From contig DWYC01000003.1 in the NCBI GenBank assembly GCA_019118925.1, forward strand, positions 1 to 51,275: a DNA stretch of 51,275 nucleotides, written 5' to 3'. The notes under the pieces were generated by a model. That model was not told the DNA's origin and searched no databases. It was given only the letters and a program-made list of their open reading frames with translations. The DNA comes from Candidatus Flavonifractor intestinipullorum. Its GTDB lineage: Bacteria > Bacillota > Clostridia > Oscillospirales > Oscillospiraceae. The position numbers and the translations under genes are program-made. Of this stretch, positions 22,695 to 39,500 are shown piece by piece (the first letter of the stretch is position 1; every line of letters begins with the position of its first letter).

Positions 22695-23051
22695 CTACTC
22701 CTCCTCCATGGCCGCGCGCAGTTTCCCCAGCGCCTTTTTTTCGATCCGGGAGACATAGGAGCGGGAAATTCCGCAGCGGGCGGCGATCTCCCGCTGCGTC
22801 AGCGGGCGCTCCCGGTCCAGGCCGTAGCGCAGGCGGATGACCATGGCCTCTCTTCCCTCCAGGCAGCGGTCCACGCATTGTCTGACCCGGGCGCAGGAGT
22901 CCCGGGCGTCCAGGTCCTCCAGCATGGTGTCGTCCACCTTGATGGTGTCAAGAATGGAGAGCGCGTTCCCCTCCCCCTCTCCGTCCAGAGAGTCGGAGAG
23001 CGACACCTCCCCCTGGAGCTTGCGCTGGGACCGGAAATGCATCAGGATCTC
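22695..23051 (-). CDS. sigK: RNA polymerase sporulation sigma factor SigK, 3' part (interrupted gene)
   Basis: This encodes the last 118 residues of SigK without a start of its own in the sigma frame. It begins at the element junction with EILMHFRS, the start of the sigma region 2/3 border. Region 4 follows, with VIRLRYGLDRERPLTQREIA and the helix-turn-helix CGISRSYVSRIEKKALGKLR. SigK directs late mother-cell gene expression during sporulation. The missing N-terminal part lies about 16 kb away on the same strand (38981-39313). Joining the two at the shared core gives CIENEILMHFRS, the expected SigK sequence. An ATG at 23042 falls inside the conserved region and is not a real start. Confidence 0.93.
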   Translation of the reverse strand, partial: EILMHFRSQRKLQGEVSLSDSLDGEGEGNALSILDTIKVDDTMLEDLDARDSCARVRQCVDRCLEGREAMVIRLRYGLDRERPLTQREIAARCGISRSYVSRIEKKALGKLRAAMEEE

Positions 23052-23057
23052 ATTTGC
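23044..23057 (-). other. Recombination half-site at the sigK 3' junction
   Basis: The plus-strand sequence AGGATCTCATTT (23044-23055) matches AGGATTGCATTT at the other junction in 10 of 12 positions. The recombinase stop codon TGA (23050-23052) lies within it. Crossover inside CATTT joins SigK codons in frame. Confidence 0.75.
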
Positions 23058-24789
23058 TATCCTCTCCTAACGGCTCCGCAGCGCCCCGTTCCGCCGCTTC
23101 ATCAACATCTCCTTGCCGGTTCGGCGTTTGGGGAAACTTGTATTCGTACTCCGAGCCGAACAGCACCACATGGGCGTCCGTCCCATCCCAGATGATCTCC
23201 TTGACAAAGGTTCGGATGGCCGCCCTTTTCTGCTCCACCGTCATTCCGTCAACGGTGTTCTGGAACGTGGCCAGCATCTGCGCCAACAGGTCAAACTCGA
23301 TGTCCGACAAGGCCTGGCTGGAAGTCAGCTCGTTCAGCTCCGCCAAATGCCGCTTCAAGCCCTCACCCTTCTCGTAGAGGTCATCGATCTGCTGCATGAT
23401 ATAGCGTTCGGCAGAGGTGCCGGAGGATCTGCCCAGAGCAGAGACAAGCCCCTTGATCTCCTCCTCGTTTGCGGTGATCTCGGACTCCAGCCTGGAGATC
23501 TCCGCGTCATAGCTTTGCCGGCTGCCCGGCAGCGCCCGCTTGCTCTGTTCCAGCTGTTGGATAAAATCGGAACCGTCCTCGCTCAGGTGCTTCAACTGCT
23601 CCACAACATCGGCGTCCAGCGTATTGCCGTTGCAGTTTTTCATGTTGCAGACATGGCCCCGGCTGCGCTCCTTCATGGAACAGAGGTAGGTATAAATCGT
23701 CTCCCCCGTTGCGTTCCGCCGCTGGGACAGCTTGGGGCGCATGAACTCGCCGCAGTTTCCGCAGATCAGCAGACCGGAGAGCAGGGCCACATTGCTGCGG
23801 GGCCTGCGGTAGCTTTTGGATCTGTTCTGCTCCAAAGCCGTCTGTACCCTGACCCACGCCTTCCCCTCAATAACGCCCTGGTGCCCGCCCACTGAGACGA
23901 TCCACTCCTCCATGGGCCTGATCTGATGGGCCTTTCCCGGCTGCTGCAAGGTGCGGTTATAGGCCATGATGCCGTGGACGCCGTCAAAGTCGCGCTGCTC
24001 GGAAAAGAGATCCACATGGTTTTTCGTCAGGTAGTCATAGGCGGATTCGTCCGCAATCAGATAAACCGGATTGGACAGGATCCCCTTGACGGCAAAGCGG
24101 GTGAACTGTTTTCCGTTTTTTGTGGTATAGCCATTCTGCAGCAGGTAGGTCTCCGTCTTTGTCAGAGAGCCGGTTTCAAGAAACTTGTCGTAGATCCGCT
24201 TGACAATGCCGATCTCCTCCGGGAGAATCTTCAGCTTGCAGGCCCTCTTGGTCTTTCCGTCGATGGTCACATGGGAGACGCTCTCCGATTCATAGCCGGT
24301 GGGGGTGTTGCCGCCCAGCCAGCGCCCGGTTTTGGCCAGCTCATGCATATTGTCCCGGATGCGCTCGGCGATGGTCTCCCGCTCCAGCTGGGAAAAAACC
24401 GAGGAAATATACATCATGGCCCGTCCCATGGGGGAGGACGTATCAAACTGCTCCTTGATGGAGATGAAGTCAATCTTCATCCCGTTCAGCTGTTCGATCA
24501 GCTTGGCGAAATCGCCGATGTTGCGGCTGATGCGGTCCAGGCGGTAGACCACGATGGCCCGGAAGTGTTTGCTCTTTGCGTCGGCCATCATCTTTTTGAA
24601 TTGGGGGCGCTCCAGCGTGCCGCCGGAGAAGCCCTCGTCCTCATATACCAGGGCCTGCTCCGCAGCATCGTCTCCGAACTGCAGCCGGATATACTGCCTG
24701 CACATTTCGATCTGGTTTTCGATGCTCTCCCCCTTGCCGGTGAACTTGGATTTTCGGGAGTAAATGACGATTGGACCGGCCGCAATCAT
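23050..24789 (-). CDS. Large serine recombinase of the sigK element (SpoIVCA-like)
   Basis: A 579-residue site-specific recombinase, predicted to excise the element and restore sigK in the mother cell. The resolvase domain (about 6-150) has VIYSRKSK with catalytic Ser11, EDEGFSGGT, and YRLDRISRN with the active-site arginines. A recombinase domain (about 170-290) follows, then a zinc ribbon with CGNCGEFM and a second Cys pair in YLCSMKERSRGHVCNMK. A coiled-coil region lies at about 420-510. Length and layout fit SpoIVCA of B. subtilis and the C. difficile skin recombinase. The ATG at 24789 has a GGTGA site five nt upstream. The gene ends exactly on the junction core, and its base composition looks somewhat less GC-rich than the flanks. 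No separate directionality factor is obvious. Confidence 0.93.
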   Translation of the reverse strand: MIAAGPIVIYSRKSKFTGKGESIENQIEMCRQYIRLQFGDDAAEQALVYEDEGFSGGTLERPQFKKMMADAKSKHFRAIVVYRLDRISRNIGDFAKLIEQLNGMKIDFISIKEQFDTSSPMGRAMMYISSVFSQLERETIAERIRDNMHELAKTGRWLGGNTPTGYESESVSHVTIDGKTKRACKLKILPEEIGIVKRIYDKFLETGSLTKTETYLLQNGYTTKNGKQFTRFAVKGILSNPVYLIADESAYDYLTKNHVDLFSEQRDFDGVHGIMAYNRTLQQPGKAHQIRPMEEWIVSVGGHQGVIEGKAWVRVQTALEQNRSKSYRRPRSNVALLSGLLICGNCGEFMRPKLSQRRNATGETIYTYLCSMKERSRGHVCNMKNCNGNTLDADVVEQLKHLSEDGSDFIQQLEQSKRALPGSRQSYDAEISRLESEITANEEEIKGLVSALGRSSGTSAERYIMQQIDDLYEKGEGLKRHLAELNELTSSQALSDIEFDLLAQMLATFQNTVDGMTVEQKRAAIRTFVKEIIWDGTDAHVVLFGSEYEYKFPQTPNRQGDVDEAAERGAAEPLGEDSK

Positions 24790-24822
24790 TAAATCACCGC
24801 CCTATGATATGTTTTCCAAATC

Positions 24823-24850
24823 AGTATATGATAGGGTGTCCCTTGGTAAA
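24823..24850 (-). promoter_or_regulatory. Candidate promoter of the recombinase gene
   Basis: Minus strand: TTTACC (24845-24850), 16-nt spacer, TATACT (24823-24828). The -10 region reads CATATACT and also partly resembles the sigma-E -10 (CATACAAT type). Mother-cell sigma-E control, known for B. subtilis spoIVCA, is therefore possible but unproven. Confidence 0.35.
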
Positions 24851-24852
24851 CG

Positions 24853-24874
24853 CGGTATTGTCTATACCGGTATC
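24853..24874 (-). promoter_or_regulatory. Inverted half-sites upstream of the recombinase promoter
   Basis: CGGTAT (24853-24858) and ATACCG (24864-24869) form an inverted repeat, and a third CGGTAT overlaps at 24868-24874. The cluster starts three bases upstream of the proposed -35 and could be a regulator site. Confidence 0.35.
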
Positions 24875-24936
24875 TGAGGTGGTGTACAGGGTATCGATTC
24901 TATGAATGCGTGTTGTCGTCTGAGGACGAAGGAATT

Positions 24937-25005
24937 ATGGCCGATCCCCTCCTCCGTGTCGAGGTGTGCGGAGGCATCCGGCTCCGCTGTCTGCAACGGG
25001 CATGA
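24937..25005 (+). CDS. Tiny ORF in the sigK element
   Basis: A 22-codon frame (MADPLLRVEVCGG then IRLRCLQRA) begins at an ATG with AGGA five nt upstream. It could be a leader peptide or the remnant of a small mobile-element gene. No domain can be recognised. Confidence 0.25.
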   Translation: MADPLLRVEVCGGIRLRCLQRA

Positions 25006-25056
25006 AGGCTAGGCATTGACGCATATACTGCACAGCCAGGGAAGAGGGTATGTGCG

Positions 25057-25239
25057 TTGGGCGTTATCCTACATTATCCGACAACTCCGGAAAGCCAGAA
25101 AGAACTTTCCAAAAAAGTTGCCGCGGTCCATGCGCAGACGGTCGTCGAGCAAATCAGATCCATGTCCTGCCCCGCAGAGCAGAAGGCGGAGTTGGTTGAG
25201 GCAATCAAGCGGATACATCAGCAGAGGGATGGGGCTTGA
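25057..25239 (+). CDS. Small hypothetical protein in the sigK element
   Basis: A 60-residue frame starting with TTG at 25057 (GVILHYPTTPESQKELSKK, then VVEQIRSMSCPAEQKAELVE). It is predicted to be mostly helical. Similar small acidic-helical ORFs, as I recall them, accompany recombinases in Clostridia mobile DNA; this recollection is not checked. The ribosome binding site (AGAGGG) is modest. A hairpin terminator overlaps its stop. Confidence 0.45.
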   Translation: MGVILHYPTTPESQKELSKKVAAVHAQTVVEQIRSMSCPAEQKAELVEAIKRIHQQRDGA

Positions 25240-25251
25240 CCCCATCCCTTT
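25225..25251 (+). terminator. Hairpin terminator overlapping the small ORF stop
   Basis: A 10-bp perfect stem (25225-25234 with 25240-25249, 5-nt loop) is followed by only two further T residues. It separates the left-end ORFs from the cargo promoter. The stretch 25252-25378 shows nothing else. Confidence 0.5.
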
Positions 25252-25378
25252 GCGCTATCCTCTGCCTTCCCGTCTGATCCATGCCTGACTGCCGATCTGT
25301 ACCCGGTCCTGCTCCCCTACGTGCAGCGTGCCAGGTGGGACGCCGCGCCGCCTTTTTCAGGAAATTTTTCCCATACTA

Positions 25379-25407
25379 TTGACGAAAAAGAGCGTTTCGT
25401 CTAAACT
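25379..25407 (+). promoter_or_regulatory. Sigma-A promoter of the first cargo operon
   Basis: Plus strand: TTGACG (25379-25384), 17-nt spacer, TAAACT (25402-25407). It would start transcription near 25414, 40 nt before the DUF1177 ATG. A small CAGG/CCTG hairpin (25421-25432) lies just ahead of the ribosome binding site. Confidence 0.7.
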
Positions 25408-25453
25408 TATAGAGTCAACGCAGGGAATCCTGCATATTAAGGAGGATACCACT

Positions 25454-26392
25454 ATGTTATTAAAGCAGGTCATGGATCTTTTTGAGCTTCTGGACACTCC
25501 CCGCGCCTGCGGCGAGACGATCAAGGAAGTCATGTTGGCCAACGGCGCCGACGAGGTGAGCGTTCAGACCGTCACCGGCGAAAAGGGGTCCACCGATTCC
25601 ATTAAAATTCTCATCAAGGGCCGCAACGGCAAGTCCAGCGGCGGCACCGCTCCCACGCTGGGCATCATCGGCCGTCTGGGCGGGCTGGGCGCCCGGCCGG
25701 AGGTCATCGGCTTCGTCTCCGACGGCGACGGCGCGCTGGCCGCCCTGTCCGCCGGTCTGAAGCTGGCCCAGATGCACAAAAACGGCGACGTGCTGGAGGG
25801 CGACGTGCTGGTGGCCACCCATATCTGCCCCCACGCCCCCACCCAGGAGCACTTCCCCGTGCCGTTTATGGACTCCCCCATCGACATGCAGCTGTGCAAC
25901 CGCATGGAGGTGGACGAGCGCATGGACGCCATTTTGTCCATCGACACCACCAAGGGCAACCGGGTCATCAACCTCAACGGCATCGCCATCTCCAACACCA
26001 TCAAAGAGGGCTATATTCTGGAGGTCAGCAACGATCTGATGGACGTGATGACCCGTGTCACCGGCCAGCTGCCCGCCATCTTCCCCTGCGCCCAGCAGGA
26101 TATCACCCCCTACGGCAACGACCTGCACCACCTCAACAGCATTCTCCAGCCCGCCACCGCCACCAACGCCCCCGTGGTGGGCGTGGCCATCACCACCGAG
26201 CAGGCCGTGGCCGGCTGCGCCACCGGCGCCAGCCACCCCCTGGACGTGGAGACGGCCGCCCGGTTCGCCGTGGAGGTGGCCAAGGGCTACGGCGCGGGAC
26301 AGGTGTCCTTCTACAGCGAGAAGGAGTACGCCCACCTGCTGGAGCTCTACGGCCGGATGAACCACTTCCAGACCTTCGGCAAGCAGGACTAA
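25454..26392 (+). CDS. DUF1177 family protein
   Basis: A 312-residue cytoplasmic protein of the DUF1177 family, whose genes typically sit beside AroM and dipeptide transporter genes. The ATG at 25454 has GGAGG eight nt upstream. Visible conserved stretches are THICPHAPTQEHFPVPFMDS, SIDTTKGNR and ATGASHPLDVETAARFAVE. The histidine- and aspartate-rich motifs suggest a metal-dependent hydrolase, but no activity is established for the family. It is the first gene of the cargo and ends 3 nt before aroM. Confidence 0.85.
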   Translation: MLLKQVMDLFELLDTPRACGETIKEVMLANGADEVSVQTVTGEKGSTDSIKILIKGRNGKSSGGTAPTLGIIGRLGGLGARPEVIGFVSDGDGALAALSAGLKLAQMHKNGDVLEGDVLVATHICPHAPTQEHFPVPFMDSPIDMQLCNRMEVDERMDAILSIDTTKGNRVINLNGIAISNTIKEGYILEVSNDLMDVMTRVTGQLPAIFPCAQQDITPYGNDLHHLNSILQPATATNAPVVGVAITTEQAVAGCATGASHPLDVETAARFAVEVAKGYGAGQVSFYSEKEYAHLLELYGRMNHFQTFGKQD

Positions 26393-26395
26393 CCC

Positions 26396-27076
26396 GTGAG
26401 CGAGCCTAAACTCCTGGCCGCGATTACCATTGGACAGGCCCCCCGCACCGACGTTACCGCGGATATTCTGCCCATGCTTCCCCCGCATGTGACTCTGCGG
26501 GAGTACGGCGCGCTGGACGAGCTCACCTGGGAACAGGTCATGGACGCCTTCCACCCCGCCCCCGGAGAACAGGTTCTGGTCTCCCGGATGCGGGACGGGC
26601 GCCAGGTCCGCATGACGGAGGGCTATGTCCTCCCCCGGCTCCAGGCGAAAATCCGCCAGGCGGAGGAGGAGGGGGCGGACGCCATTCTGCTTCTGTGCAC
26701 CGGGTCCTTTCCCGCCTTTCCGCACCGGGTGCTGCTGCTGGAGCCCCAGGAGATGCTCCATGCCGTGGTGGCCAAACTGGCCGGCGGGCAAAAGGTGGGG
26801 CTGCTGGTCCCCATGCCCGACCAGGTGGAGCAGGCCTACCGCTTCTGGGGGGAGCACGGCGTGGACGTCACCGTGGCCTGCGCCTCCCCCTATCTGGACT
26901 TTGAGGGCGTGCGCCGGGCGGCGCAGCAGTTCCGGGGGCAGGATCTGGCCTTTGTGTGTACCGACTGCATGGGCTATACCGTGGCCATGAAACGGGCCAT
27001 TCAACAGGAGACCGGGCTTCCGGTGATCCTTCCGCGCACCCTGGTTGTCCGGGTTCTTGGCGAGCTGCTGGATTAA
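26396..27076 (+). CDS. AroM family protein
   Basis: A 226-residue protein of the AroM family, start GTG at 26396, only three bases after the DUF1177 stop. The N-terminus LLAAITIGQAPRTDVTADI is characteristic. Two cysteine motifs, ILLLCTGSF and FVCTDCMGYT, sit in the two halves in the way catalytic cysteines do in Asp/Glu/hydantoin racemases. A racemase-like role on amino acids or peptides is therefore plausible but is inference. E. coli aroM itself has no proven function. Confidence 0.85.
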   Translation: MSEPKLLAAITIGQAPRTDVTADILPMLPPHVTLREYGALDELTWEQVMDAFHPAPGEQVLVSRMRDGRQVRMTEGYVLPRLQAKIRQAEEEGADAILLLCTGSFPAFPHRVLLLEPQEMLHAVVAKLAGGQKVGLLVPMPDQVEQAYRFWGEHGVDVTVACASPYLDFEGVRRAAQQFRGQDLAFVCTDCMGYTVAMKRAIQQETGLPVILPRTLVVRVLGELLD

Positions 27077-27089
27077 CGCGGAACTTCAC

Positions 27090-27114
27090 AGGCGGCGGGT
27101 CTTTCCCGCCGCCT
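27090..27114 (+). other. Intercistronic hairpin after aroM
   Basis: A perfect 10-bp GC stem (27090-27099 with 27105-27114, 5-nt loop) is followed by GGTTTCATTT. The T content is too low for an efficient terminator, so it may be partial attenuation or mRNA protection within the operon. Confidence 0.45.
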
Positions 27115-27146
27115 GGTTTCATTTGACTTTCAGGAGGTAATGTCCC

Positions 27147-28469
27147 ATGAGCGACATCAATCAGGAGCTCTTATCCTTCATCCAGCGCAGCCCCAGCTGC
27201 TACCATGCGGTGGAAACCATCGCCCGGGAGCTGACGGAGGGCGGCTTTACCGAGCTCTCCGAGGGGGAGCGCTGGACTCTGGAGCGGGGCGGGCGGTACT
27301 TTGTGCGCCGGAACCTCTCCACCATTCTGGCCTTCCGGATTCCCCGGGAGGAGATCCGGGGCGTTCAGATCGCCGCCTCCCACAGCGATTCTCCCGCCTT
27401 CAAGCTCAAGGAGAACATGGACATCGTGCGGGACGGTGCCTACACCGAGCTGAACGTGGAGAAATACGGCGGGATGCTCTGTGCGCCCTGGTTCGACCGG
27501 CCGCTGTCGGTGGCCGGCAAGGTGGTGCTCTGCCGGGAGGGCCGGCTGGAGTCCCGCCTGGTGAACCTGGACCGGGACCTGCTGATGATCCCCAACCTGG
27601 CCATCCACATGAACCGGAGCGTCAACGACGGCTATGCCTACAGCGCCCAGCGGGACATGCTCCCTCTGCTGGGGGATGAGACGGCCAAGGGCAAACTGAT
27701 GGAGCTGGTGGCCCAGGCCGCCGGAGTGGCCCGGGAGGAAATTTTGGGCAGCGACCTGTTCCTCTACTGCCGCAGCCGGGGCACCGTCTGGGGCGCCGGC
27801 GGGGAATACCTCTCCTCGCCCAAGCTGGACGACCTCCAGTGCACCTTCGCCAATCTGAAGGGGTTCCTGGCGGCCGGGGAAAATCCCCATGCCCTCTCCG
27901 TCTATGCGGTGTTCGACAATGAGGAGGTGGGCAGTACCACCAAGCAGGGGGCCGCCTCCACCGTGCTGCTGGACACCCTCACCCGCATCAACGAGTGCCT
28001 GGGCCGGAGCCGGGAAGACTATCTGCGGATGCTCGCCTGCGGCTTCATGGTCTCGGCCGACAACGCCCACGCCGTCCATCCCAACCACCTGGACGCCGCC
28101 GACCCCACCAATCACCCCCATATGAACCGGGGAATTGTCCTCAAGTTCAGCGCCAACCAGAAGTACGGCACCGACTCGGTGTCGGCCGCTCTCTTCCGGG
28201 AGCTCTGCCGCCGGGCGGACGTGCCCACCCAGGTGTTCCACAACCACTCGGACATTCTGGGCGGGAGCACCCTTGGAAACCTCTCCAACGCCCAGGTATC
28301 CCTGAATATGGTGGACATCGGCCTGCCCCAGCTGGCCATGCACTCCCCCTATGAGACGGCGGGCGCCCGGGACACCGCCTATCTGGTCCGGGCCATGGAG
28401 GTCTTTTTCAACAGCTATCTTCAGGACGAGGGACAGGGCGCCTACACCCTGCACACCTGCCGTGTATGA
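27147..28469 (+). CDS. M18 family metallo-aminopeptidase
   Basis: A 440-residue aspartyl-aminopeptidase-type enzyme that would remove N-terminal residues from peptides in the cytoplasm. The ATG at 27147 has AGGAGG nine nt upstream. Metal and catalytic motifs are AASHSDSPAFKLKEN (His79), FDNEEVGSTTKQGA (paired Glu), SADNAHAVHPN (Asp) and LAMHSPYETAGARDT (His near the C-terminus). Length is normal for M18. It lies in the first cargo operon and would act on peptides imported by the Dpp transporter downstream. Confidence 0.93.
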   Translation: MSDINQELLSFIQRSPSCYHAVETIARELTEGGFTELSEGERWTLERGGRYFVRRNLSTILAFRIPREEIRGVQIAASHSDSPAFKLKENMDIVRDGAYTELNVEKYGGMLCAPWFDRPLSVAGKVVLCREGRLESRLVNLDRDLLMIPNLAIHMNRSVNDGYAYSAQRDMLPLLGDETAKGKLMELVAQAAGVAREEILGSDLFLYCRSRGTVWGAGGEYLSSPKLDDLQCTFANLKGFLAAGENPHALSVYAVFDNEEVGSTTKQGAASTVLLDTLTRINECLGRSREDYLRMLACGFMVSADNAHAVHPNHLDAADPTNHPHMNRGIVLKFSANQKYGTDSVSAALFRELCRRADVPTQVFHNHSDILGGSTLGNLSNAQVSLNMVDIGLPQLAMHSPYETAGARDTAYLVRAMEVFFNSYLQDEGQGAYTLHTCRV

Positions 28470-28479
28470 GGTGAAGAAC

Positions 28480-29136
28480 ATGTATTACTATGTCAATCAG
28501 ACCCGCTATCCCCATGTCCCCTATCCCACTCTGACCGCCATTCCGGAGCTGGCCCGGAACGACACCACCGTGCGCTCCGCCGGGTGCGGGCTGTGTTCGG
28601 TCTCCATGGTGGTCACTAATTTGACGGGGACGGAATTTCCGCTCATCGACGCGCTGGAGCTCTCCCTGGCGGTAAACGCCAACCACAGCCCCGGCACCGA
28701 TATGGACCGTCTGGCCCCCTATGTGGCCGAGCGCTTCGGCCTGAAGCTGGTGATGACCGACGACCCGGAGCAGCTGCGCCAGAGCCTGCTGCGGGGAGGC
28801 ATGGCCGTGGCCAACGTGACGGGAGACCGGCCGGAGGAGAACTATGTGGGGCTCTTCTCCCACGGCGGCCACTATGTGGCGGTGGTGGCCATTGAGCCCG
28901 ACGGCGAGCATGTCACCGTCCTGGACCCCTCCCAGCTGCCCGACAAATTCCACGAAGCGGGCCGGGAGGGCAAGGTGGTGGAAAACGGATTCTGCCTGCA
29001 CACCACGCTGTCCATTCTCGCGGAGGACTGCCGGTTCCGCCCGGCGGAGTGCTACCCGGAGGGAGAATTCAAATCCTGGATGGAATTCGACCGCCGGACC
29101 GTCCACAACCGATATTATCTCTTTGAAAAGGAATAG
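28480..29136 (+). CDS. C39-like cysteine peptidase
   Basis: A 218-residue protein with a papain-like C39-type core and no signal peptide. SAGCGLCSVSMVV carries the probable nucleophilic Cys, SHGGHYVAVVAI the His and VLDPSQ the Asp. The ATG at 28480 has GAGGTG six nt upstream, 10 nt after the M18 stop. Without an ABC exporter fusion it is unlikely to be a bacteriocin leader peptidase. An amidase or peptide hydrolase role fits the neighbouring genes. Confidence 0.8.
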   Translation: MYYYVNQTRYPHVPYPTLTAIPELARNDTTVRSAGCGLCSVSMVVTNLTGTEFPLIDALELSLAVNANHSPGTDMDRLAPYVAERFGLKLVMTDDPEQLRQSLLRGGMAVANVTGDRPEENYVGLFSHGGHYVAVVAIEPDGEHVTVLDPSQLPDKFHEAGREGKVVENGFCLHTTLSILAEDCRFRPAECYPEGEFKSWMEFDRRTVHNRYYLFEKE

Positions 29137-29295
29137 AACCTGGTTTTGACGGAATGTTTATCCATCGCGATTCCCTGTTTCCGGTGAACTGCGCCGATTT
29201 CCGGCCAAATGTTCCGTATTTGTTCTTTTTGCGAATTATAATGTCTTATTTTCCCATCCTTTCTCTGTTATTTTCTGCAATTTCCTTGTAAACAC

Positions 29296-29324
29296 TTGAA
29301 AAATGATGTTCAATATAGTATGAT
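29296..29324 (+). promoter_or_regulatory. Sigma-A promoter of the second cargo operon
   Basis: TTGAAA (29296-29301), 17-nt spacer, TATGAT (29319-29324), within an AT-rich gap of about 270 bp (29137-29404). Nothing else clear is visible in that gap. Confidence 0.75.
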
Positions 29325-29404
29325 TAGTTTTATTAAAATACGAAATGTAGAGCGGTTTTTTTATCCCTCCGGGCCGGCCGTTCTGCGGGAGGAGTTGCGT
29401 CAGC

Positions 29405-30580
29405 ATAGAACGTGAGATTTATCAGGAAGCTCTGTCTCTGCGGGACGAGCTGGTTGCGTGGCGGCGGCAGCTTCACCGCCACCCGGAGCTGGGCTTTGAT
29501 CTGCCGGTGACGCGGGCTTTTGTCTTTGAAAAACTGCGTGAAATGGGCTATGAGCCCCAGGACGTGGGGCGGGCCGGCATCACCTGTACCATCGGCCGGG
29601 GCGCTCCGGTCTTTCTGCTGCGGGGGGATATGGACGCCCTGCCCATGCAGGAGGAGACCGGACTGCCCTTCGCCTCGGAAAACGGGTGCATGCACGCCTG
29701 CGGGCACGATTTCCACACCACCGCCCTGCTGGGCGCCGCCCGGCTGCTGCGGCAGCACGAGGGAGAGCTGCGGGGCACGGTAAAGCTGCTCTTTCAGCCG
29801 GCGGAGGAGACCATGGACGGCGCGCAGGATGTCTTTGACGCCGGAATTCTGGAACACCCCCACGTGGACGCCGCCATGGCCCTGCATGTGGTTCAGGCGC
29901 CCTTCGGAACGGTAAACTACACCCCCGGCTCCGCCTGCGGCTCCAGCGACGTGTTCACCATCACCGTCAACGGCCGGGGCGGGCACGGCGCCGCGCCCCA
30001 CCGGAATATCGACCCCATCAACGTGGCGGCCCATATTGTGCTCTCTCTCCAGACCATCAACAGCCGTGAGGTCAACCCCAATGAGATGATTGTCCTCACC
30101 ATCTGTTCCCTCCACGCCGGCAGCGCCGCCAACGTGACGCCGGCTCAGGCGGTGCTGAAGGGCACCATCCGCACCATGAATCTGGAGGTCAAGGAGTTCG
30201 CCCGGCAGCGGCTGACGGAAATCTGCCGGGATGTGTGCCGCACGTTCCGGGCCGAATGCGACATTGCGTTCACCGGAGCGGGCATTCCCCCCATGATCAA
30301 TGATCCCGCCCTTACCGAGGAGTTGAGCGGCTATATCGATGCGCTCCTGGGCTCCGGTTCGGTCCGCCATATTGAGCGGATGACCGGGTCGGAGGATTTC
30401 TCGGTCTTTTCCCACCACGTGCCCTGCGCGCTGTACTGGTTCGGCACCGGCAGCGCGGAAGAGGGGTATCCCTATGGTGTTCACGATCCCAGGGTCACAT
30501 TCCGCGAGGATGCGCTCCCTGAGATGGCGGCCGTGTATGCTCAGTCCGCCATCTGCTGGCTCGCGAACCACCATCAGTGA
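29405..30580 (+). CDS. M20 family amidohydrolase (N-acyl amino acid/peptide hydrolase type)
   Basis: About 391 residues. It resembles the IAA-amino acid hydrolase/hippuricase group that splits N-acyl amino acids. Motifs are AWRRQLHRHPELGF near the N-terminus, LRGDMDALPMQEETGLPF, MHACGHDFHTTALLGAARLL, QPAEE and GSEDFSVF. The start is odd: the first in-frame canonical codon (GTG at 29507) would delete the conserved HRHPELGF segment. The frame is open back to 29351 without ATG, GTG or TTG. The GGGAGGAG site (29387-29394) points to an ATA at 29405 as the initiator, or to a sequence error. Motifs are otherwise intact. Confidence 0.82.
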   Translation: MEREIYQEALSLRDELVAWRRQLHRHPELGFDLPVTRAFVFEKLREMGYEPQDVGRAGITCTIGRGAPVFLLRGDMDALPMQEETGLPFASENGCMHACGHDFHTTALLGAARLLRQHEGELRGTVKLLFQPAEETMDGAQDVFDAGILEHPHVDAAMALHVVQAPFGTVNYTPGSACGSSDVFTITVNGRGGHGAAPHRNIDPINVAAHIVLSLQTINSREVNPNEMIVLTICSLHAGSAANVTPAQAVLKGTIRTMNLEVKEFARQRLTEICRDVCRTFRAECDIAFTGAGIPPMINDPALTEELSGYIDALLGSGSVRHIERMTGSEDFSVFSHHVPCALYWFGTGSAEEGYPYGVHDPRVTFREDALPEMAAVYAQSAICWLANHHQ

Positions 30581-30614
30581 TAGATGTGTAAGACCCAAAA
30601 CGAACAGGAGTGAA

Positions 30615-32243: not shown

Positions 32244-32265
32244 TTAACTGCGATAAGCCGCTATC

Positions 32266-32297
32266 ACCTATGGGGCGCGCACGCGCGCCCCATAGGT
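32266..32297 (+). other. Strong intercistronic hairpin between binding protein and permease genes
   Basis: Two 15-nt arms (32266-32280 and 32283-32297) are perfect inverted repeats. With no T-run it is not a full terminator. Such hairpins commonly keep the binding-protein mRNA more abundant than the permease mRNA. The rest of the gap (32298-32514) shows no further gene. Confidence 0.6.
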
Positions 32298-32514
32298 TGC
32301 TGTCAGGGGGACTTTTTCATCCCGAGCAGCACAAATGTACATCCGCGCGGATAATAGTTCGCCATACAGGTACAGGAGGCGATCTCTCTGCGGATGGAAC
32401 CTCCTCCATGCGGCAGGGTTTCGGCCGGATGGCCGCGTGGAAAAACCGCAGAGGTCGGTTTATATCCACCAAATGAACAAAACTATCACATGTATTGATA
32501 TGGCGGTGATGTGA

Positions 32515-33471
32515 GTGTTAAAAACTATCTTAAAACGTATTGTGCAGTGTATTCCCACGCTCTTCATCGTGGTCACATTCACATTTATTTTGACCCGCGC
32601 GATCCCGGGCAACCCGGCGCAGACGCTGCTGGGCCCCCAGGCCACAGCGGAAGATATCGCGGCCATGGAGATCAAGCTGGGCCTGGATCAGCCCAAATGG
32701 AAGCAGTACATCGACTATATGGGCGACGTGCTTCACGGTGATTTCGGGACCTCCTATATGTATAATCAGCCCGTTCTGGAGCTGATCGGGCAGCGCATCG
32801 GTCCCACCCTTCAGATTACTCTGACCGCGCTGATCATCGCACTGATCATCGGTGTGGGCGTGGGTATGTTCTCCGCGCTGCACCAATATTCCGCATTCGA
32901 CTATATCTTTATGGTCCTGGCCCTGGTGGGCGTATCCATGCCCATCTTCTGGCTGGGCATGATGCTGGTCAACTTCTTCTCGGTGAACCTGGGACTTCTC
33001 CCGGTGTCGGGCCGGGGCGATATTGCAAACGGATTGTGGGACGTGATCTCCCACATGATCCTGCCCTGTCTGTGCCTGTGTACCATTCCCATGGCCACTT
33101 TCGCCCGGATCACCCGCTCCAGCATGCTGGAGGTCATCCGCAGCGACTCCATTAAGGCCCTGCGGGCCCGCGGCATCAGCGAGCGCAGCGTGATTTTCAA
33201 GCACGCCCTCAAAAACGCCCTGCCCCCCATTATCACGGTCCTGGGCCTGCAGCTGGCCAGCTGCTTCACCGGCGCCATCCTGACGGAGAACATCTTCTCC
33301 TGGCCTGGACTGGGCACCATGATCGTCAACGGCATCAACAACCGCGACTATATGCTCATCCAGGGCATGGTCCTGTTTTTCGCCATGGTCTTTGTGGTCA
33401 TTAACCTGATCGTCGATCTGGTCTATATGGTCATCAATCCCAGAGTCAGTTATGAAGGAGGCGGCGCGTAA
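32515..33471 (+). CDS. Dipeptide/oligopeptide ABC transporter permease (DppB type)
   Basis: A 318-residue inner-membrane permease with six predicted helices. It has the family N-terminus LKRIVQCIPTLFIVVTFTF and the EAA-like coupling loop ALRARGISERSVIFKHALKN. The GTG at 32515 has GGTGA nearby. Its stop codon overlaps the DppC start (TAATG). Together with DppC it forms the membrane channel of the importer. Confidence 0.95.
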   Translation: MLKTILKRIVQCIPTLFIVVTFTFILTRAIPGNPAQTLLGPQATAEDIAAMEIKLGLDQPKWKQYIDYMGDVLHGDFGTSYMYNQPVLELIGQRIGPTLQITLTALIIALIIGVGVGMFSALHQYSAFDYIFMVLALVGVSMPIFWLGMMLVNFFSVNLGLLPVSGRGDIANGLWDVISHMILPCLCLCTIPMATFARITRSSMLEVIRSDSIKALRARGISERSVIFKHALKNALPPIITVLGLQLASCFTGAILTENIFSWPGLGTMIVNGINNRDYMLIQGMVLFFAMVFVVINLIVDLVYMVINPRVSYEGGGA

Positions 33472-34391
33472 TGAAGAAGAAACAGAACATGGGGGAGGCT
33501 ATCACCGACGCCCTCGGTACCGCCTCCAACGAAGAGCTGCTGAAAAAGGAGCGCCGGGCCAACAGTGCCTGGAGCAAGCTCAAACGCAATAAAACGGCCA
33601 TGGTGGGTCTGATTATCGTGTGCATCATGATCTTTATCGCGGTCTTTGCACCCCTGCTGGCCCCCTATGACCCCACGGCCATCAGCCCCCTGGAGGCCTA
33701 CGCCCGGCCGGGTGAGAACGGCCACATTCTGGGCTGCGACCACATCGGACGGGACCTTCTCTCCCGCATTATCTACGGCTCCCGGGTATCCCTGCTGGTG
33801 GCCTTTGGCGGCACGGTGGTGGCCGGCATCATCGGCGTGCTCCTGGGCCTGATCGCCGGTTACTTCGGCGGCATTGTGGACAGCATCATCATGCGCATTA
33901 TGGACGGCATGCTCTCCTTCCCCTATATCCTGCTGGCCATGGTGCTGATGACCGTGCTGGGCTCGAGTATCTTCAACGTCATCCTGGCCGTGGGCATCGG
34001 CAACATCCCCAGCTTTGCCCGTGTGGTCCGGGGCGAGGTGCACATCATCAAAAATGAGGAGTACTGCAACGCCGCCCGGGTCATCGGCGTGTCCAACGCC
34101 CGGATGCTCTTCACCCACATCCTGCCCAACACCATCTCCCCCCTGATCGTCTACGCCACCCTGGGCATCGCCGGCGCCATCATCTCCGAGGCCGCCCTGA
34201 GCTTCCTGGGCCTGGGCATCAGCGAGCCCACCGCCTCCTGGGGCAGCATCCTCCAGACCGGCAAATTCTATCTCAATACCGCCCCCCATATCGCCACTTA
34301 CTCCGGCATCTTCATTCTCATCACCGTGCTGGGCTTCAATCTGCTGGGCGACGGCGTGCGCGACGTGCTGGACCCCAAGATGAAGAAGTAA
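33471..34391 (+). CDS. Dipeptide/oligopeptide ABC transporter permease (DppC type)
   Basis: A 306-residue permease with an N-terminal cytoplasmic arm and six helices. The conserved GCDHIGRDLLSRIIYGSRVS and the coupling loop NAARVIGVSNARMLFTHILP identify the DppC/OppC group. It starts at an ATG overlapping the dppB stop and has an AGGAGG site inside dppB. Confidence 0.95.
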   Translation: MKKKQNMGEAITDALGTASNEELLKKERRANSAWSKLKRNKTAMVGLIIVCIMIFIAVFAPLLAPYDPTAISPLEAYARPGENGHILGCDHIGRDLLSRIIYGSRVSLLVAFGGTVVAGIIGVLLGLIAGYFGGIVDSIIMRIMDGMLSFPYILLAMVLMTVLGSSIFNVILAVGIGNIPSFARVVRGEVHIIKNEEYCNAARVIGVSNARMLFTHILPNTISPLIVYATLGIAGAIISEAALSFLGLGISEPTASWGSILQTGKFYLNTAPHIATYSGIFILITVLGFNLLGDGVRDVLDPKMKK

Positions 34392-34403
34392 CGGAGGAGC
34401 AGA

Positions 34404-35588
34404 ATGGACAAGTATAAAGAACGCGTGCGCCAGCGCGTGGCGGACATTCTGCCCGAGCTGGTGGCCCTCTCGGATACCATCTGGTCCCATCCGGAGTATA
34501 ATTTTGAGGAACACCACGCCTGCGCCGCCATGAGCGAGCAGCTGCGGCGCTTCGGTTTCCAGGTGGAGACCGGGGTGGGCGGCGTCGCCACCAGCGTCAA
34601 GGGCGTGTATGAGAGCGGCAAGCCCGGCCCCAACATCGGTATCTTCGGCGAGTTCGACGCGGTGCCCGGCATGGGCCACGCCTGCGGCCACAACCTGATG
34701 TGCGCCATGGCGGTGGGCGCGGGCGAGGCGCTGCGCAGCGTCCTGGACGAGCTGGGCGGCACGGTGAGCGTCTTCGGCTGCCCGGCGGAAGAGGGCGGCG
34801 GCGGCAAGATCATCATGCTCCAGAACGGCGCCTTCGCCGGGCTGGACGTGGCCATGCTCCTCCACTCGGCCAGCGATACGGTGGTGCAGGACATCTCTTA
34901 CTCCAGGACCGACGTGCTGGTCCACTTCTACGGCAAGAAGTCCCACGCGGCCACCTGGCCCGAGGAGGGCGTGAGCGCCCTGACCCCGGTGCTGGAGCTG
35001 TTCAACACCGTCAACGCCCTGCGTCTGGAGATCGCCGACCGGGGCAAGATCCTGGGCGTGATCCGGGACGGCGGAGAGGAGCCCATCTACATCCCCGACC
35101 ACTGCTCGGCGGAGTTTACCATCCGCTCCTTCTCCATGAAAGACAAGCTGGACCTGCTGGACCGCTTTTTGAAGATCTGCCAGCACCTAGCGGAGATCAC
35201 CAATACCCGCTTCTCCTACGAGCCCGTGGGGCTCCCCTACGAGGACATCCGGAACAACCCGGTGCTGGAGGAGCTGCTGGAGCGGAACTTTACCGCCCTG
35301 GGCGAGCAGGTAAAGCCCCGGGAGCGGGAGCTGGGCATCGGCTGCACCGATATGGGCAACGTGACCCACGAGATCCCCGGCCTGCAGTCCTACGTGCTGG
35401 TGGTGCCGGAGACCCGGGGGCATACCCCGGAGTTCGAGGCGGCGGTGGGCGGCCCGGCGGGCCACAAGACCATCGCCGTGGGCTCCAGCGCCATGGCCAT
35501 GACGGCGGTGGATATCCTCACCGATCCGTCGCTGCTGGGCCGGATCCGGGACGCCTTTGCCGAGATGAAGGCCCGGTACGAGCGGTAA
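34404..35588 (+). CDS. M20 family peptidase/amidohydrolase (AbgB/ACY1L2-like)
   Basis: A 394-residue metallohydrolase set between the permease and ATPase genes of the transporter, so its substrate is probably what the transporter imports. Motifs are WSHPEYNFEEHHA, GEFDAVPGMGHACGHNLM, GCPAEEGGGGK and the lid-domain segment VHFYGKKSHAATWPEEG. This subgroup includes p-aminobenzoyl-glutamate and dipeptide hydrolases. The ATG at 34404 has GGAGGAG upstream, 12 nt after the dppC stop. Confidence 0.9.
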   Translation: MDKYKERVRQRVADILPELVALSDTIWSHPEYNFEEHHACAAMSEQLRRFGFQVETGVGGVATSVKGVYESGKPGPNIGIFGEFDAVPGMGHACGHNLMCAMAVGAGEALRSVLDELGGTVSVFGCPAEEGGGGKIIMLQNGAFAGLDVAMLLHSASDTVVQDISYSRTDVLVHFYGKKSHAATWPEEGVSALTPVLELFNTVNALRLEIADRGKILGVIRDGGEEPIYIPDHCSAEFTIRSFSMKDKLDLLDRFLKICQHLAEITNTRFSYEPVGLPYEDIRNNPVLEELLERNFTALGEQVKPRERELGIGCTDMGNVTHEIPGLQSYVLVVPETRGHTPEFEAAVGGPAGHKTIAVGSSAMAMTAVDILTDPSLLGRIRDAFAEMKARYER

Positions 35589-35600
35589 GGAGGTTGTGCT

Positions 35601-36617
35601 ATGAGTGATACATTGCTGAAAGTCAGCGGATTGAAAACCTATTTCTTTACGGCCAGCGGCGTGTCCAAAGCAGTGGACGGCGTCAGCTTTGAGCTCAAGC
35701 GCGGGGAAGTGATGGGCATTGTGGGTGAGTCGGGCTCGGGTAAGAGCGTCACCTCCAACTCCATCATCCGCCTGCTGCCTCCTCAGACCGGCCGGATTGT
35801 GGACGGCGAAATCACCTTTGAGGGCCGGGATATTCTGGCCATGAGCCATAAACAGCTGCTGGAATTCCGCGGCAAGGAGATCGCCACCATCTTCCAGGAC
35901 CCCATGACCTCTCTGGACCCGGTGTTCAAAATCGGCAAGCAGATGGTGGAGATGATCTGCGCCCATCAGGACGTCAGCAAGAAGGAGGCGTGGGACATGG
36001 CGGTCCACGCCCTGGCCCGGGTGGGTATCCCGGAGCCCGAAAAGCGCATGGAGGCCTACCCCTATGAGCTCTCGGGCGGCATGTGCCAGCGCGTGATCAT
36101 CGCCATGGCGGTGTGCTGCAAGCCCAAGTTCATCATCGCCGACGAGCCCACCACCGCTCTGGACGTGACCGTCCAGGCCCAGGTGCTGGATCTGCTCAAG
36201 GATCTGCAGAAGGACATGGACACCTCCATTCTCCTCATCACCCACAACCTGGGCGTGGTGTGGGAGATGTGCGACAAGGTGATGGTCATGTACGCAGGCA
36301 ATACGGTGGAGAGCGCCGACACCAAGGAGCTCTACTCCAACCCCCTGCACCCCTACACCTGGGGCCTGCTGGACTCCATCCCCCGCCTGTCCGACCACGC
36401 CAAGGAGGACCTGCGCACCATTCCCGGTACGCCCCCCGACCTCCGCTTGACCGGAAAATGCTGTAATTTCTACAACCGCTGCCCCTATATGACCAAGCAA
36501 TGCTGTGAATCCGTGCCCCCTCTGGTGGAGGTGGAGCCCGGCCATTTCGTGGCCTGCCACCGCCAGAACGGCGTGGAGCGGCTGGTGAGAGGAGAGGTAA
36601 CTCATGACGCAGAATGA
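35601..36617 (+). CDS. Dipeptide/oligopeptide ABC transporter ATP-binding protein (DppD type)
   Basis: A 338-residue ATPase with Walker A GESGSGKSVTSNS, signature LSGGMCQRVIIA and Walker B FIIADEPTTALD. The C-terminal extension CCNFYNRCPYMTKQC is the family's cysteine motif, often an Fe-S site in DppD/OppD. The ATG at 35601 has AAGGAGG upstream. It overlaps the next gene by 14 nt. Confidence 0.95.
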   Translation: MSDTLLKVSGLKTYFFTASGVSKAVDGVSFELKRGEVMGIVGESGSGKSVTSNSIIRLLPPQTGRIVDGEITFEGRDILAMSHKQLLEFRGKEIATIFQDPMTSLDPVFKIGKQMVEMICAHQDVSKKEAWDMAVHALARVGIPEPEKRMEAYPYELSGGMCQRVIIAMAVCCKPKFIIADEPTTALDVTVQAQVLDLLKDLQKDMDTSILLITHNLGVVWEMCDKVMVMYAGNTVESADTKELYSNPLHPYTWGLLDSIPRLSDHAKEDLRTIPGTPPDLRLTGKCCNFYNRCPYMTKQCCESVPPLVEVEPGHFVACHRQNGVERLVRGEVTHDAE

Positions 36618-37590
36618 GACGCGCCAGCCCATCATGAAGATCCGCAACCTGACCAAGGAATTCAAGATCAAGAGCAAAAAGCTGGGCGCCAAGCCCCAGA
36701 TTCTCCACGCCCTGACCGACGTGTCCCTGGATGTGTACGAGGGCGAGACTTTGGGCATCATCGGCGAGTCCGGCTGCGGCAAGTCCACGCTGGGCCGCAC
36801 CGTCATCCAGCTCCACAAGGCCACCTCCGGTTCGGTGGAGTACCTGGGCAAGGACCTGTTCTCCCTGACCGGTGCGGAGCGCAAGGCCATGAAGCGGGAC
36901 ATCCAGATGGTCTTTCAGGACCCCTACTCCTCCCTGGATCCCCGCAACACCTGCGAGCAGCTCATTGCCGAGCCCCTGAAGGTCCACGGGATTATTTCCG
37001 ACAGCAAGGCCCGGCAGGATCGGGTCCTGGAGCTGATGCGGGAGGTGGGCCTGGACATCCAGCACATGAACCGCTATCCCCACGAGTTCTCCGGCGGCCA
37101 GCGCCAGCGGATCAATGTGGCCCGGGCTCTGGCCCTCCAGCCGAAGATCATCATCTGTGACGAGCCGGTCTCCGCTCTGGACGTGTCCATCCAGGCCCAG
37201 GTGCTCAACCTCTTCAACCGCCTGCAGCGGGACCACAACCTGACGTATATCTTTATCTCCCACGATCTGGGCGTCATTAAGCACGTCAGCGACCGCATCG
37301 CCATCATGTATCTGGGCCGGGTGGTGGAGCTGTGCAAGGCCTCCCAGATCTACGACAATCCCCTGCACCCCTATACCCGGGCGCTGCTCTCCGCCATTCC
37401 CCCGGAGTCCCCCTTTGAAAAGAAGCAGCGCATCGTCCTCAAGGGCGAGATCCCCAGCCCCATCGGCGACCAGGTGGGTTGTCCTCTGGCCGGCCGCTGC
37501 CCCAACTGCACCGAGCGGTGCACCCGGGAAATCCCGAAGCTGAACGATACCGGAGACGGCCATCAGGTGGCCTGTTTCCTGTACGACTGA
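36604..37590 (+). CDS. Dipeptide/oligopeptide ABC transporter ATP-binding protein (DppF type)
   Basis: A 328-residue ATPase with Walker A GESGCGKSTLGRT, signature FSGGQRQRINVA and Walker B IIICDEPVSALD. The C-terminal motif CPLAGRCPNCTERCTRE has the spaced cysteines seen in this group. The ATG at 36604 lies inside dppD, so translation is coupled. With DppD it forms the heterodimeric motor of the importer. Confidence 0.95.
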   Translation: MTQNETRQPIMKIRNLTKEFKIKSKKLGAKPQILHALTDVSLDVYEGETLGIIGESGCGKSTLGRTVIQLHKATSGSVEYLGKDLFSLTGAERKAMKRDIQMVFQDPYSSLDPRNTCEQLIAEPLKVHGIISDSKARQDRVLELMREVGLDIQHMNRYPHEFSGGQRQRINVARALALQPKIIICDEPVSALDVSIQAQVLNLFNRLQRDHNLTYIFISHDLGVIKHVSDRIAIMYLGRVVELCKASQIYDNPLHPYTRALLSAIPPESPFEKKQRIVLKGEIPSPIGDQVGCPLAGRCPNCTERCTREIPKLNDTGDGHQVACFLYD

Positions 37591-37611
37591 TGAAAAGAGG
37601 TCTTTTTACCC

Positions 37612-38874
37612 ATGGAACAAGTATCGCGTGAAATGTTGCACCGCCTGGCTGTGGAGCGCAGCGGTGAACTGGTCCAGCTGGTCTCCGACCTGATCCACAT
37701 CCCCAGCGAAAACCCCACCGGCACCCAGCGGGAGGTAGTGGACTTTGTGGAGAACTATCTCCGTCAGGCCGGAATCTCCTATGAAGAGGTGGGCGAGAAC
37801 CCGGACTTTCCCTGCATTGTGGCCAAAATGGGCGCCGACGAGGGCTTCAGTATCATCCTGAACGGCCATCTGGACGTGGTGCCCGCCGGCGACCGGAGCC
37901 AGTGGGACTTCGATCCCTTCGCGGGGACCGTCACCGACACGCAGATTTTGGGCCGCGGGACCTCTGATATGAAGGCCGGTGTGGCCGGACTGCTCTTCGC
38001 CATGAAGCTCCTGAAGGAGTCGGGCGCCGAGCTCAAGGGCAACATCCGCCTCCACCTGGTCTCCGACGAGGAGAGCGGCGGCGAGTTCGGCTCCCGCTGG
38101 CTGTGCGACCACGGCTATGCCGAGGGGGCCAACGCCTGCCTCATCGCCGAGCCCACCTCCGCCAACGACATTGAGATCGGCCAGAAGGGCGGCCTTACCG
38201 TCATCCTGAAGGCCGCCGGTAAATCGGCCCACGGCAGCCTGGGCGGCTTCAAGGGGGATAACGCCATCCTGAAGCTGGCCAAGGTACTGGAAGAGCTCCC
38301 CCGCCTGACTACCATCGAGGGGCATTTCAAGCCCAGCCAGGAGCGGGCCCTGAACAACTCCATCCAGCGGGCCCAGTCGATCCTGAACGAGCCCGGCGTG
38401 GGCGAAGTCATCCGCCATGTCTCGGCCAACGTCGGCCTCATCCAGGGCGGAACCCGGCCCAACATGGTCCCCGACTACTGCGAGGCCATTGTGGACGTGC
38501 GTCTCCCCATCGGGGTGGACCACCAGGAGATCGAGGACATGCTCGCCTCCATCGTGGCCGAGAGCGGCGTGGAGGGCGTGACCTACGAGCTGCAGTGGAA
38601 GAGCGAGGGCAACTACACCGAAGAGGACGAGGCCATCGTTCAGACCGTCAAGCGCAATGCGGAGGCCGTGTGGAACATGGAAGTGATCCCCGCCTATCAG
38701 TGGGCCTCCTCCGACGCCCGGGACTACCGCCGCGTGGGCATCCCCACCATCCAGTACGGCCCGGCCAATACGGCCGGTATCCACTCGTACAATGAAAACG
38801 TGGACATTCAGGACGTGGTCAACGCGGGGCAGATCTATGTGCTGTCTCTGTGCGACCTGCTGGGCGTCCAGTAA
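37612..38874 (+). CDS. M20 family ArgE/DapE-type deacylase
   Basis: A 420-residue metallohydrolase. Motifs are ILNGHLDVVPAGDRSQWDFD (metal His and Asp), GRGTSDMKAGVAG (bridging Asp), SDEESGGEFGS (catalytic Glu pair) and the C-terminal GPANTAGIHSYNENV with the last metal His. It would cleave N-acyl or small peptide bonds. It is the last gene of the second cargo operon. The ribosome binding site is modest (AGAGG). A strong terminator follows, and the element end lies about 100 nt downstream. Confidence 0.9.
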   Translation: MEQVSREMLHRLAVERSGELVQLVSDLIHIPSENPTGTQREVVDFVENYLRQAGISYEEVGENPDFPCIVAKMGADEGFSIILNGHLDVVPAGDRSQWDFDPFAGTVTDTQILGRGTSDMKAGVAGLLFAMKLLKESGAELKGNIRLHLVSDEESGGEFGSRWLCDHGYAEGANACLIAEPTSANDIEIGQKGGLTVILKAAGKSAHGSLGGFKGDNAILKLAKVLEELPRLTTIEGHFKPSQERALNNSIQRAQSILNEPGVGEVIRHVSANVGLIQGGTRPNMVPDYCEAIVDVRLPIGVDHQEIEDMLASIVAESGVEGVTYELQWKSEGNYTEEDEAIVQTVKRNAEAVWNMEVIPAYQWASSDARDYRRVGIPTIQYGPANTAGIHSYNENVDIQDVVNAGQIYVLSLCDLLGVQ

Positions 38875-39313
38875 TCCCAATCCCATCGGAATGGAACAAA
38901 GAGCGGAGAGACCTGTGTCTCTCCGCTCTTTTTGGTTCTGATCCGGTTATTCTCCAAACACGCCGTTGTGTGAGGATTGCATTTTCAATACACCGTGAAG
39001 CATAGGTGGCCAGACGCACCTTTTTGTCCGGCTTGAAGGTGGCGATTCCTTTAATCAGCCCGATGGTCCCGATGGAAATCAAATCGTCCTGATCTCCGTT
39101 GGGCGTATAATACTTTTTGACAATATGGGCCACCAGACGCAGGTTATGCTCAATGAGCCGGTCCCGGGCCCCCATGTCTCCGGCCGCCATGGCCTCCAGT
39201 TCCCGCTGTTCCTCCTCCGGCTTGAGCGGCCGCGGGAAGGAACTCTCCCCTCCCGAGAGCCGTAGCGTCACAAAGAGACTGTTGAGCATCAGTGCCAGCC
39301 AGACAGGCAGCAT
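38819..39313 (-). CDS. sigK: RNA polymerase sporulation sigma factor SigK, 5' part (interrupted gene)
   Basis: The first 111 codons (39313 to 38981) encode the N-terminal part of SigK. Region 1.2/2 is clear: LIEHNLRLVAHIVKKYY, DDLISIGTIGLIKGIATF and LATYASRCIEN. After that the frame runs into element DNA and stops at 38819, giving a non-functional tail. The ATG at 39313 is six nt from GGAGGAG; the ATG at 39319 is too close to the site. The first 20 or so residues are hydrophobic (LPVWLALMLNSLFVTLRL), as in the pro-sequence of B. subtilis pro-SigK. That suggests a second control by proteolytic processing. The 3' part is at 22695-23051. Confidence 0.93.
   Translation of the reverse strand: MLPVWLALMLNSLFVTLRLSGGESSFPRPLKPEEEQRELEAMAAGDMGARDRLIEHNLRLVAHIVKKYYTPNGDQDDLISIGTIGLIKGIATFKPDKKVRLATYASRCIENAILTQRRVWRITGSEPKRAERHRSLRSLFHSDGIGITGRPAGRTETAHRSAPR
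38898..38933 (+). terminator. Terminator of the cargo operon just inside the element end
   Basis: A 15-bp perfect stem (38898-38912 with 38917-38931, 4-nt loop) ends in a T-run (38929-38933). It shields the sigK 5' part from antisense transcription. Confidence 0.9.
38973..38986 (-). other. Recombination half-site at the sigK 5' junction
   Basis: The plus-strand sequence AGGATTGCATTT (38973-38984) is the partner of 23044-23055. On the sigma strand it reads GAA AAT GCA ATC CT. Exchange inside CATTT yields the codons GAA AAT GAG ATC CTG. Confidence 0.75.
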
Positions 39314-39500
39314 TCCCATCTCCTCCTCCCATTGCGCCTCATTCAGGTCCGTTTTTCCATTCTATTCGAGCCCGGCCCGTCCCTATGTGCCGCTCCGGCT
39401 GCAAGTCCGCTTCGAATTATCCTGTCCATAAAATTTTTACAAAAATTTTACACCCTATTTATTCGAAACGTAAATTTTGTGCAAAGTCTTTACATTCCCA

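Follow-up and report, generated by a model that had tools for sequence, protein, structure and literature searches.

Whether a sigK gene that lies in two pieces can still serve sporulation, and how it would be made whole, is the question raised by contig C19 (DWYC01000003.1) of Candidatus Flavonifractor intestinipullorum; the whole stretch of 51,275 nucleotides that was analysed is called the window here. Programmed excision of DNA in the course of sporulation is documented in a small number of Bacilli and Clostridia. The evidence set out below confirms that sigK is split in the window and supports its reading as a gene interrupted by a sigK-intervening (skin) element, which is very probably functional; its excision is deduced from sequence comparisons. 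In all likelihood, the window carries a live skin element, for which an excision mechanism is proposed.

Both parts of sigK are encoded on the minus strand, in the order N half, element, C half. The 5' part (38981..39319; 113 codons) ends with ATYASRCIEN, and the 3' part (22695..23051, stop codon included) starts with EILMHFRS. For either half the top NCBIfam model is SigK, with E values of 1.4e-41 for the N half (best SigE model, 3.5e-33) and 6.2e-33 for the C half (best SigE model, 2.7e-20). These model matches, together with the coordinates, bear out the claim of a preliminary description that sigK is split by about 15.9 kb into collinear halves on one strand. The 5' part has a hydrophobic N terminus that can be aligned to where the SigK model begins, which suggests that the N half opens with a pro-sequence-like stretch. 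The split falls between the codons AAT (ending at 38981) and GAG (starting at 23051), 15.9 kb apart, and the two junctions have AAATG in common, with a core-to-core distance of 15,929 bp. Fusion of the halves at AAATG in silico yields a single SigK frame reading ...CIENEILMHFRS...; the join is in frame as had been anticipated, and the product comprises 231 amino acids rather than the about 229 given earlier.

The host genome is a 2.25-Mb bin of 94 contigs that is 81% complete, with an estimated 19% missing. Such fragmentation, along with the occurrence of the cargo operon elsewhere in congeners, might suggest that sigK or the element was fused with unrelated DNA during assembly, an explanation that we regard as extremely improbable in view of contig C90 of another bin, G008. 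This contig is 99.0% identical to positions 24347-41355 of the window over 17 kb and crosses the 5' junction unbroken, so that this junction and most of the element do not represent a misjoin, although the comparison is less independent if the samples are related. C90 stops short of the 3' junction; that junction recurs in the genomes of relatives, and the joined frame is exact. Bin G008 also contains, on contig C156, an uninterrupted sigK whose flanks on either side match those in the window (81-83% nucleotide identity), and thus a relative with an intact gene in the same neighbourhood, as sought in the preliminary description, does exist. Because two sigK loci are found in bin G008, one of the two contigs, probably C90, may be a stray from the window's species. 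A SigK search of the host bin returned four matches, of which three are listed, namely both halves and a SigE-like gene at 46% identity; among the matches listed for this 81% complete genome, no second intact sigK was found.

Both sigK halves and the recombinase of the element are under purifying selection. Relative to the intact sigK of five congeners, dN/dS amounts to 0.07-0.14 for the N half and 0.05-0.35 for the C half, and for the recombinase the value is 0.12 with the two closest relatives and 0.21 with a further one. Thus, sigK is apparently still used, which implies excision, and the element must very probably leave precisely before the spore is completed. A dead insertion, with sigK broken for good in a strain that no longer completes sporulation, would agree with the lack of any observed excision, with an incomplete bin as host and with a cargo that has seemingly replaced most of a neighbouring element gene, but it would have to be reconciled with the low dN/dS ratios, which extend to a 60-aa ORF of the element (0.19-0.23 against two relatives), although a very recent loss leaves no trace in such ratios, with the intact joined frame, and with the retention of SpoIIID and SpoIVA. 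We consider it very unlikely. The sporulation genes found in the host are the SigE-like gene and those of SpoIIID (2.6e-35) and SpoIVA (6.5e-117).

The preliminary description had placed a large serine recombinase at the 3' junction, and the corresponding ORF (23050..24789, minus strand; 579 aa) does end there. Its product contains the Pfam domains Resolvase (3.7e-35), Recombinase (4.7e-18) and zinc ribbon (3.6e-11) and matches a PHROGs integrase family at 1.2e-112. Since the stop codon TGA straddles the junction, the recombinase frame would run on in the circle predicted in silico. On the minus strand, attL (38958..39000) consists of a sigK left arm, the core AA (38983-38982) and the element right arm TGCAATCCTCACACAACGGCG, and attR (23035..23075) of the element left arm AGCCGTTAGGAGAGGATAGCA, the core AA (23054-23053) and a sigK right arm. 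The exact crossover would lie at this position inside AAATG, with both arms starting with TG. In the window, the element-side arms form a 21-bp inverted repeat with matches at 16 of 21 positions, a value reached by none of 20,000 random pairs of element stretches. Aligned N-side junctions (nine, from the window, the G008 contig that is nearly identical to it, and seven further genomes) and C-side junctions give consensus sequences of about GTATTGAAAATGCTATCCTC for attL and GAGGATAGCAAATGAGATCC for attR, from which an element site of about GAGGATAGCA-AA-TGCTATCCTC follows, a near-palindrome centred on AA. As these alignments show, each junction is a hybrid that combines part of the near-palindromic site of the element with part of the site in sigK.

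In eight of nine aligned recombinases the frame stops at attR, the ninth (G033) being reversed; in G032 and G041, which are outside this alignment, the recombinase end lies off the junction. Further elements inserted in reverse at the same sigK codon bring the reversed set to L086, L087, L148 (= L071, G033) and L278, all with a recombinase that reads into the N half. Their central att bases are still AA when read on the sigK strand. Given the near-symmetric arms, the two central bases may set the orientation of the element. Taken together, in-frame halves, an internal recombinase, hybrid att sites, an uninterrupted sigK in the same neighbourhood in the bin of one congener, purifying selection and the presence of sporulation genes support the skin-type reading proposed in the preliminary description. 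A search of viral contigs for the attP pattern expected of the excised circle matched two contigs, neither of them genuine, and no excision product was seen there; both were rejected as perfect terminator-like palindromes with no match to the recombinase, sigK or the 60-aa protein.

Other genomes reveal a second sigK insertion site at about codon 67-69 (IVKKYY). The 3' parts there follow a common TCCTTTTGCT (L077 near 9772 in G040, L078 near 5972 in G039, L053 near 835 in G059), and 5' parts end at the same place in G039, G040, G046 and G059 (N parts L160-L163). Adjoining these parts is an opposite-strand ORF that, by eye, resembles another serine recombinase. In G040, L077:3000-6800, which precedes the second-site sigK part by a few kb, holds a long array of regular repeats and, by eye, a Cas2-like small protein, and is probably a CRISPR locus.

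The insertion in the window is one of many at the same codon. Among 99 genomes, the host's own included, 25 contain a recombinase match at 1e-40 or better. Eleven have a long match with at least 47% identity (G000, G002, G004, G009, G014, G031, G032, G033, G038, G041 and G092), and all of these carry a sigK half on the same contig. For the best 80 of 513 confirmed loci in named genomes, a sigK half was located within 0.4 kb of the recombinase end in 76; of the other four, L119 has an N half at the far end only, two (L085 and L135) are cut off by contig ends, and none was seen at L114. When 295 species were drawn evenly from the order, a recombinase at 1e-120 or better was present in 21, with a sigK half at 19 of the 21 loci. 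In a tree of 62 recombinases, 52 sigK-linked rows plus L114 group apart from nine other recombinases; support for this group is 92/86, below the strongest class, and several of its branches are long. The recombinase of the window thereby falls, by sequence, into a sigK-linked group of gut Clostridia, and the comparisons show related recombinases at the same sigK codon in close as well as distant relatives. Insertion into sigE in the distant relatives was considered and rejected, as SigK was the best model for all ten C halves tested from the 80 loci.

Divergent from the recombinase is an ORF of 60 codons (25057..25239, plus strand), which we propose as a candidate recombination directionality factor because of its association with the recombinase. 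An alignment of 27 members was built for its family. The family occurs in 11 of the 99 genomes, all of which have the recombinase (G008 through the stray contig; Fisher 9.5e-14, uncorrected for relatedness). In the 295-genome draw, 16 genomes have both, five only the recombinase, five only the family and 269 neither (Fisher 3.7e-18, again uncorrected for relatedness); of the five with the family only, the sigK N half adjoins in two and a recombinase fragment in one, with two left without explanation. Family members L291 and L292 (G234, G265) have common neighbours, with neither a sigK half nor a recombinase in reach.

The protein matches no Pfam or NCBIfam family at 0.001, and scans with the 27 members gave weak, scattered matches only (best PHROGs 0.015, best Pfam 0.0049). 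A structure model shows a two-helix hairpin (mean pLDDT 90, pTM 0.62). Searched against solved structures, the family profile had a single match below 0.01 (a 173-aa chain, 2.5e-4), of which no stretch passed alone. Upstream of the ORF lies a possible sigmaE-type promoter (25000..25029, plus strand), with GCATGAA, 15 bases and CATATACT. For the sigmaE-type pattern, the score in the window corresponds to p 0.055 against shuffles; upstream of 33 family members p is below 0.05 in three and below 0.1 in eight, and the combined p of 2e-5 is taken over related sequences whose single values are mostly above 0.05. A sigmaE-type promoter ahead of the 60-aa ORF is therefore suggestive only.

That the 60-aa ORF is an element gene of some other kind, such as a regulator, and that a different protein or the recombinase alone decides excision is a real possibility, if not a probable one. 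Small genes beside recombinases can be regulators, the protein is set beside known factors by size and not by sequence likeness, and among the eleven genomes with a long recombinase match G032, the only one without the family, nonetheless has a complete element. Such a role is harder to square with the 17 of 17 named complete elements (both sigK halves in one locus) that hold the ORF, the 2.65-kb ones included; 18 named loci had matched both halves, and L100 was left out since its N-like match (52%) adjoins another C-like match, which lies in an adjacent sigma gene. The smallest elements, L124 (2655 bp) and L134 (2671 bp), contain, besides the recombinase and the 60-aa ORF, a single additional likely gene, which in L124 encodes a cytochrome b5-like protein (Pfam 4.3e-9) and in L134, by eye, is a similar ORF. 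A two-helix protein of 60 aa is moreover close in size to Skr (64 aa) and CD1234 (72 aa), and we retain the directionality factor as the preferred role.

Next to the 60-aa ORF, positions 25246..25353 on the minus strand hold what appears by eye to be the remnant of an HTH-regulator-like gene; in G009, a longer frame occupies this place beside the 60-aa ORF. About 100 bases past the remnant starts an operon of 13.4 kb for peptide transport and peptidases (25453..38876, plus strand; Pfam and NCBIfam). All on the plus strand, its genes encode DUF1177 (25472-26392), AroM (26396-27076), an M18 aminopeptidase (27147-28469), a weakly matched C39-like protein (28462-29136), an M20 peptidase (29507-30580), a solute-binding protein of family 5 (30615-32243), two permeases (32515-34391), a second M20 peptidase (34404-35588), two oligopeptide ABC ATPases (35601-37590) and a third M20 peptidase (37612-38874). 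Among ten element proteins compared with PHROGs, a set without the two ABC ATPases and the last M20 peptidase, only the recombinase matches a phage function; four transport or peptidase proteins match families of unknown function, and phage structural or replication genes were not found. By its annotation, the cargo is a peptide-transport/peptidase operon and not a prophage.

Copies of the operon exist away from sigK in G008 (contig C24; 88% nucleotide identity over 11.9 kb, cut at the contig end) and G009 (C11; 85-87%), with different flanks and with no match to a sigK half, the recombinase or the 60-aa protein found in these stretches. An M20 gene used as probe at 1e-60 was detected in three of the 99 genomes, namely the host's own, G008 and G009. 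A recent transfer of the cargo was also considered; synonymous divergence (dS) is 0.27-0.67 for the cargo genes against the G008 and G009 copies and 0.51-0.59 for two flanking genes against G008. The remnant and the copies elsewhere suggest that a chromosomal operon has seemingly moved into a skin core.

For the live element, we propose the following sequence of events. During growth, and in the forespore, the element would stay in place and SigK would not be produced. A sporulation signal in the mother cell, for which sigmaE/SpoIIID operating via the 60-aa protein as directionality factor is the most likely candidate, would allow the recombinase to join attL with attR. The 15.9-kb element would leave as a circle, sigK would become one gene of 231 codons, and pro-SigK could then be made. 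The spore would inherit the uncut copy and so retain the element together with the peptide-uptake operon. If the 60-aa protein were absent, integration would be the only reaction of the recombinase, and circles could thereby enter the sigK of other species.

Records named Pseudoflavonifractor, Anaeromassilibacillus, Faecalibacterium and Ruminococcaceae D5 contain recombinases with 95-97% protein identity and about 90% DNA identity to that of the first-named, yet the SigK C halves beside them are only 40-63% identical (five pairs measured). Likewise, recombinases from Mediterraneibacter, Holdemania, Tyzzerella and a Clostridiaceae bin share 90% identity with the first, and the SigK C halves 42-53% (four pairs). 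Recombinases so alike beside such dissimilar SigK proteins are read as recent movement, which indicates that sigK-linked recombinases have probably passed between families. Faecalibacterium is a genus usually regarded as non-sporulating. The record labelled Faecalibacterium prausnitzii APC923/61-1 (L104) contains a split sigK 3' part (SigK best model, 1.7e-22) beside a 95% identical recombinase; the label or the strain may be misassigned.

Phages and plasmids were considered as sources and rejected, the top match in a phage collection being only 38% identical (a Terrisporobacter phage) and the best plasmid match 50% identical (a Ruminococcus albus plasmid). Of 80 loci retained from 142 on viral contigs, three (L191-L193) contain a C half of sigK, and these probably represent skins located in host DNA. 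A C. difficile plasmid record (NZ_CP149669.1; L272) is a 24-kb circle that carries microcompartment genes and a serine recombinase of 40% identity; its divergent 59-aa ORF showed no match to the 60-aa family (hhalign probability 1.2%). The record may represent a chromosomal element that was excised and then catalogued as a plasmid.

A broader interpretation, for which we would claim plausibility but not quite likelihood, is that of a distinct, non-phage lineage of elements that has specialised, in gut Clostridia, on a single sigK codon and passes from one bacterial family to another. At its smallest (2.65 kb), the machinery would consist of a recombinase, the 60-aa protein as directionality factor of a new family, and one gene more; host operons would be taken up as cargo, and sigK would serve as a docking site kept harmless by mother-cell excision. 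The same excision event is predicted from sequence in many gut commensals, as 19 of 295 evenly drawn species have the recombinase beside a sigK half. The elements offer a candidate directionality factor and very small representatives for bench work, such as the 2.65-kb one of Clostridium sp. HBUAS56010; Flavonifractor sp. An92 and An112 are isolates with this recombinase next to sigK. The window provides a case of a metabolic operon, located elsewhere in congeners, that sits within such an element. Automatic annotation may call such a sigK broken and the species unable to sporulate.

The element belongs to the sigK-intervening kind that is already known; in the open-access literature we found none described for this lineage, and among the titles listed none concerned skins of Oscillospiraceae or Lachnospiraceae. 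Abe et al. (2013) is cited for how skin elements are distributed. The two sigK passages found in a sporulation survey of gut bins (PMC11536998) are not about interruption. With the skin of B. subtilis, the element of the window shares a split sigK whose halves rejoin in frame, a large serine recombinase and a small gene beside it, the 60-aa ORF being comparable by size with skr, whose 64-aa product is described as a small factor beside the recombinase SpoIVCA (PMC6957869). The core AAATG also fits the AATGA motif given for the recombination site of the B. subtilis skin (PMC10745906). By contrast, the B. subtilis skin is referred to as a 48-kb defective prophage (PMC13141910), whereas the window holds a metabolic operon. 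Furthermore, the recombinase gene adjoins the 5' part of sigK in B. subtilis and the 3' part in the window, and the skr gene overlaps spoIVCA, whereas the 60-aa ORF is divergent from the recombinase.

The skin of C. difficile resembles the element in that the recombinase CD1231 is stated to lie immediately upstream of the sigK 3' part (PMC5025042), and in att sites with inverted repeats. Its 72-aa small factor CD1234 is reported to be controlled by sigmaE and SpoIIID (PMC5025042). It differs in the sigK insertion site and in cargo, and C. difficile SigK lacks a pro-sequence, whereas the N half in the window appears to start with one. Phage structural genes are likewise lacking, and a serine recombinase is present, in gin, which interrupts the Bacillus cereus gene gerE, and in island IV, an insertion in the sigK gene of B. 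cereus biovar anthracis, for both of which excision in sporulation is reported (PMC5595907, PMC10745906). Gin, however, thus lies in a gene other than sigK and has three recombinase genes, and island IV occupies another position in sigK and carries restriction-modification genes.
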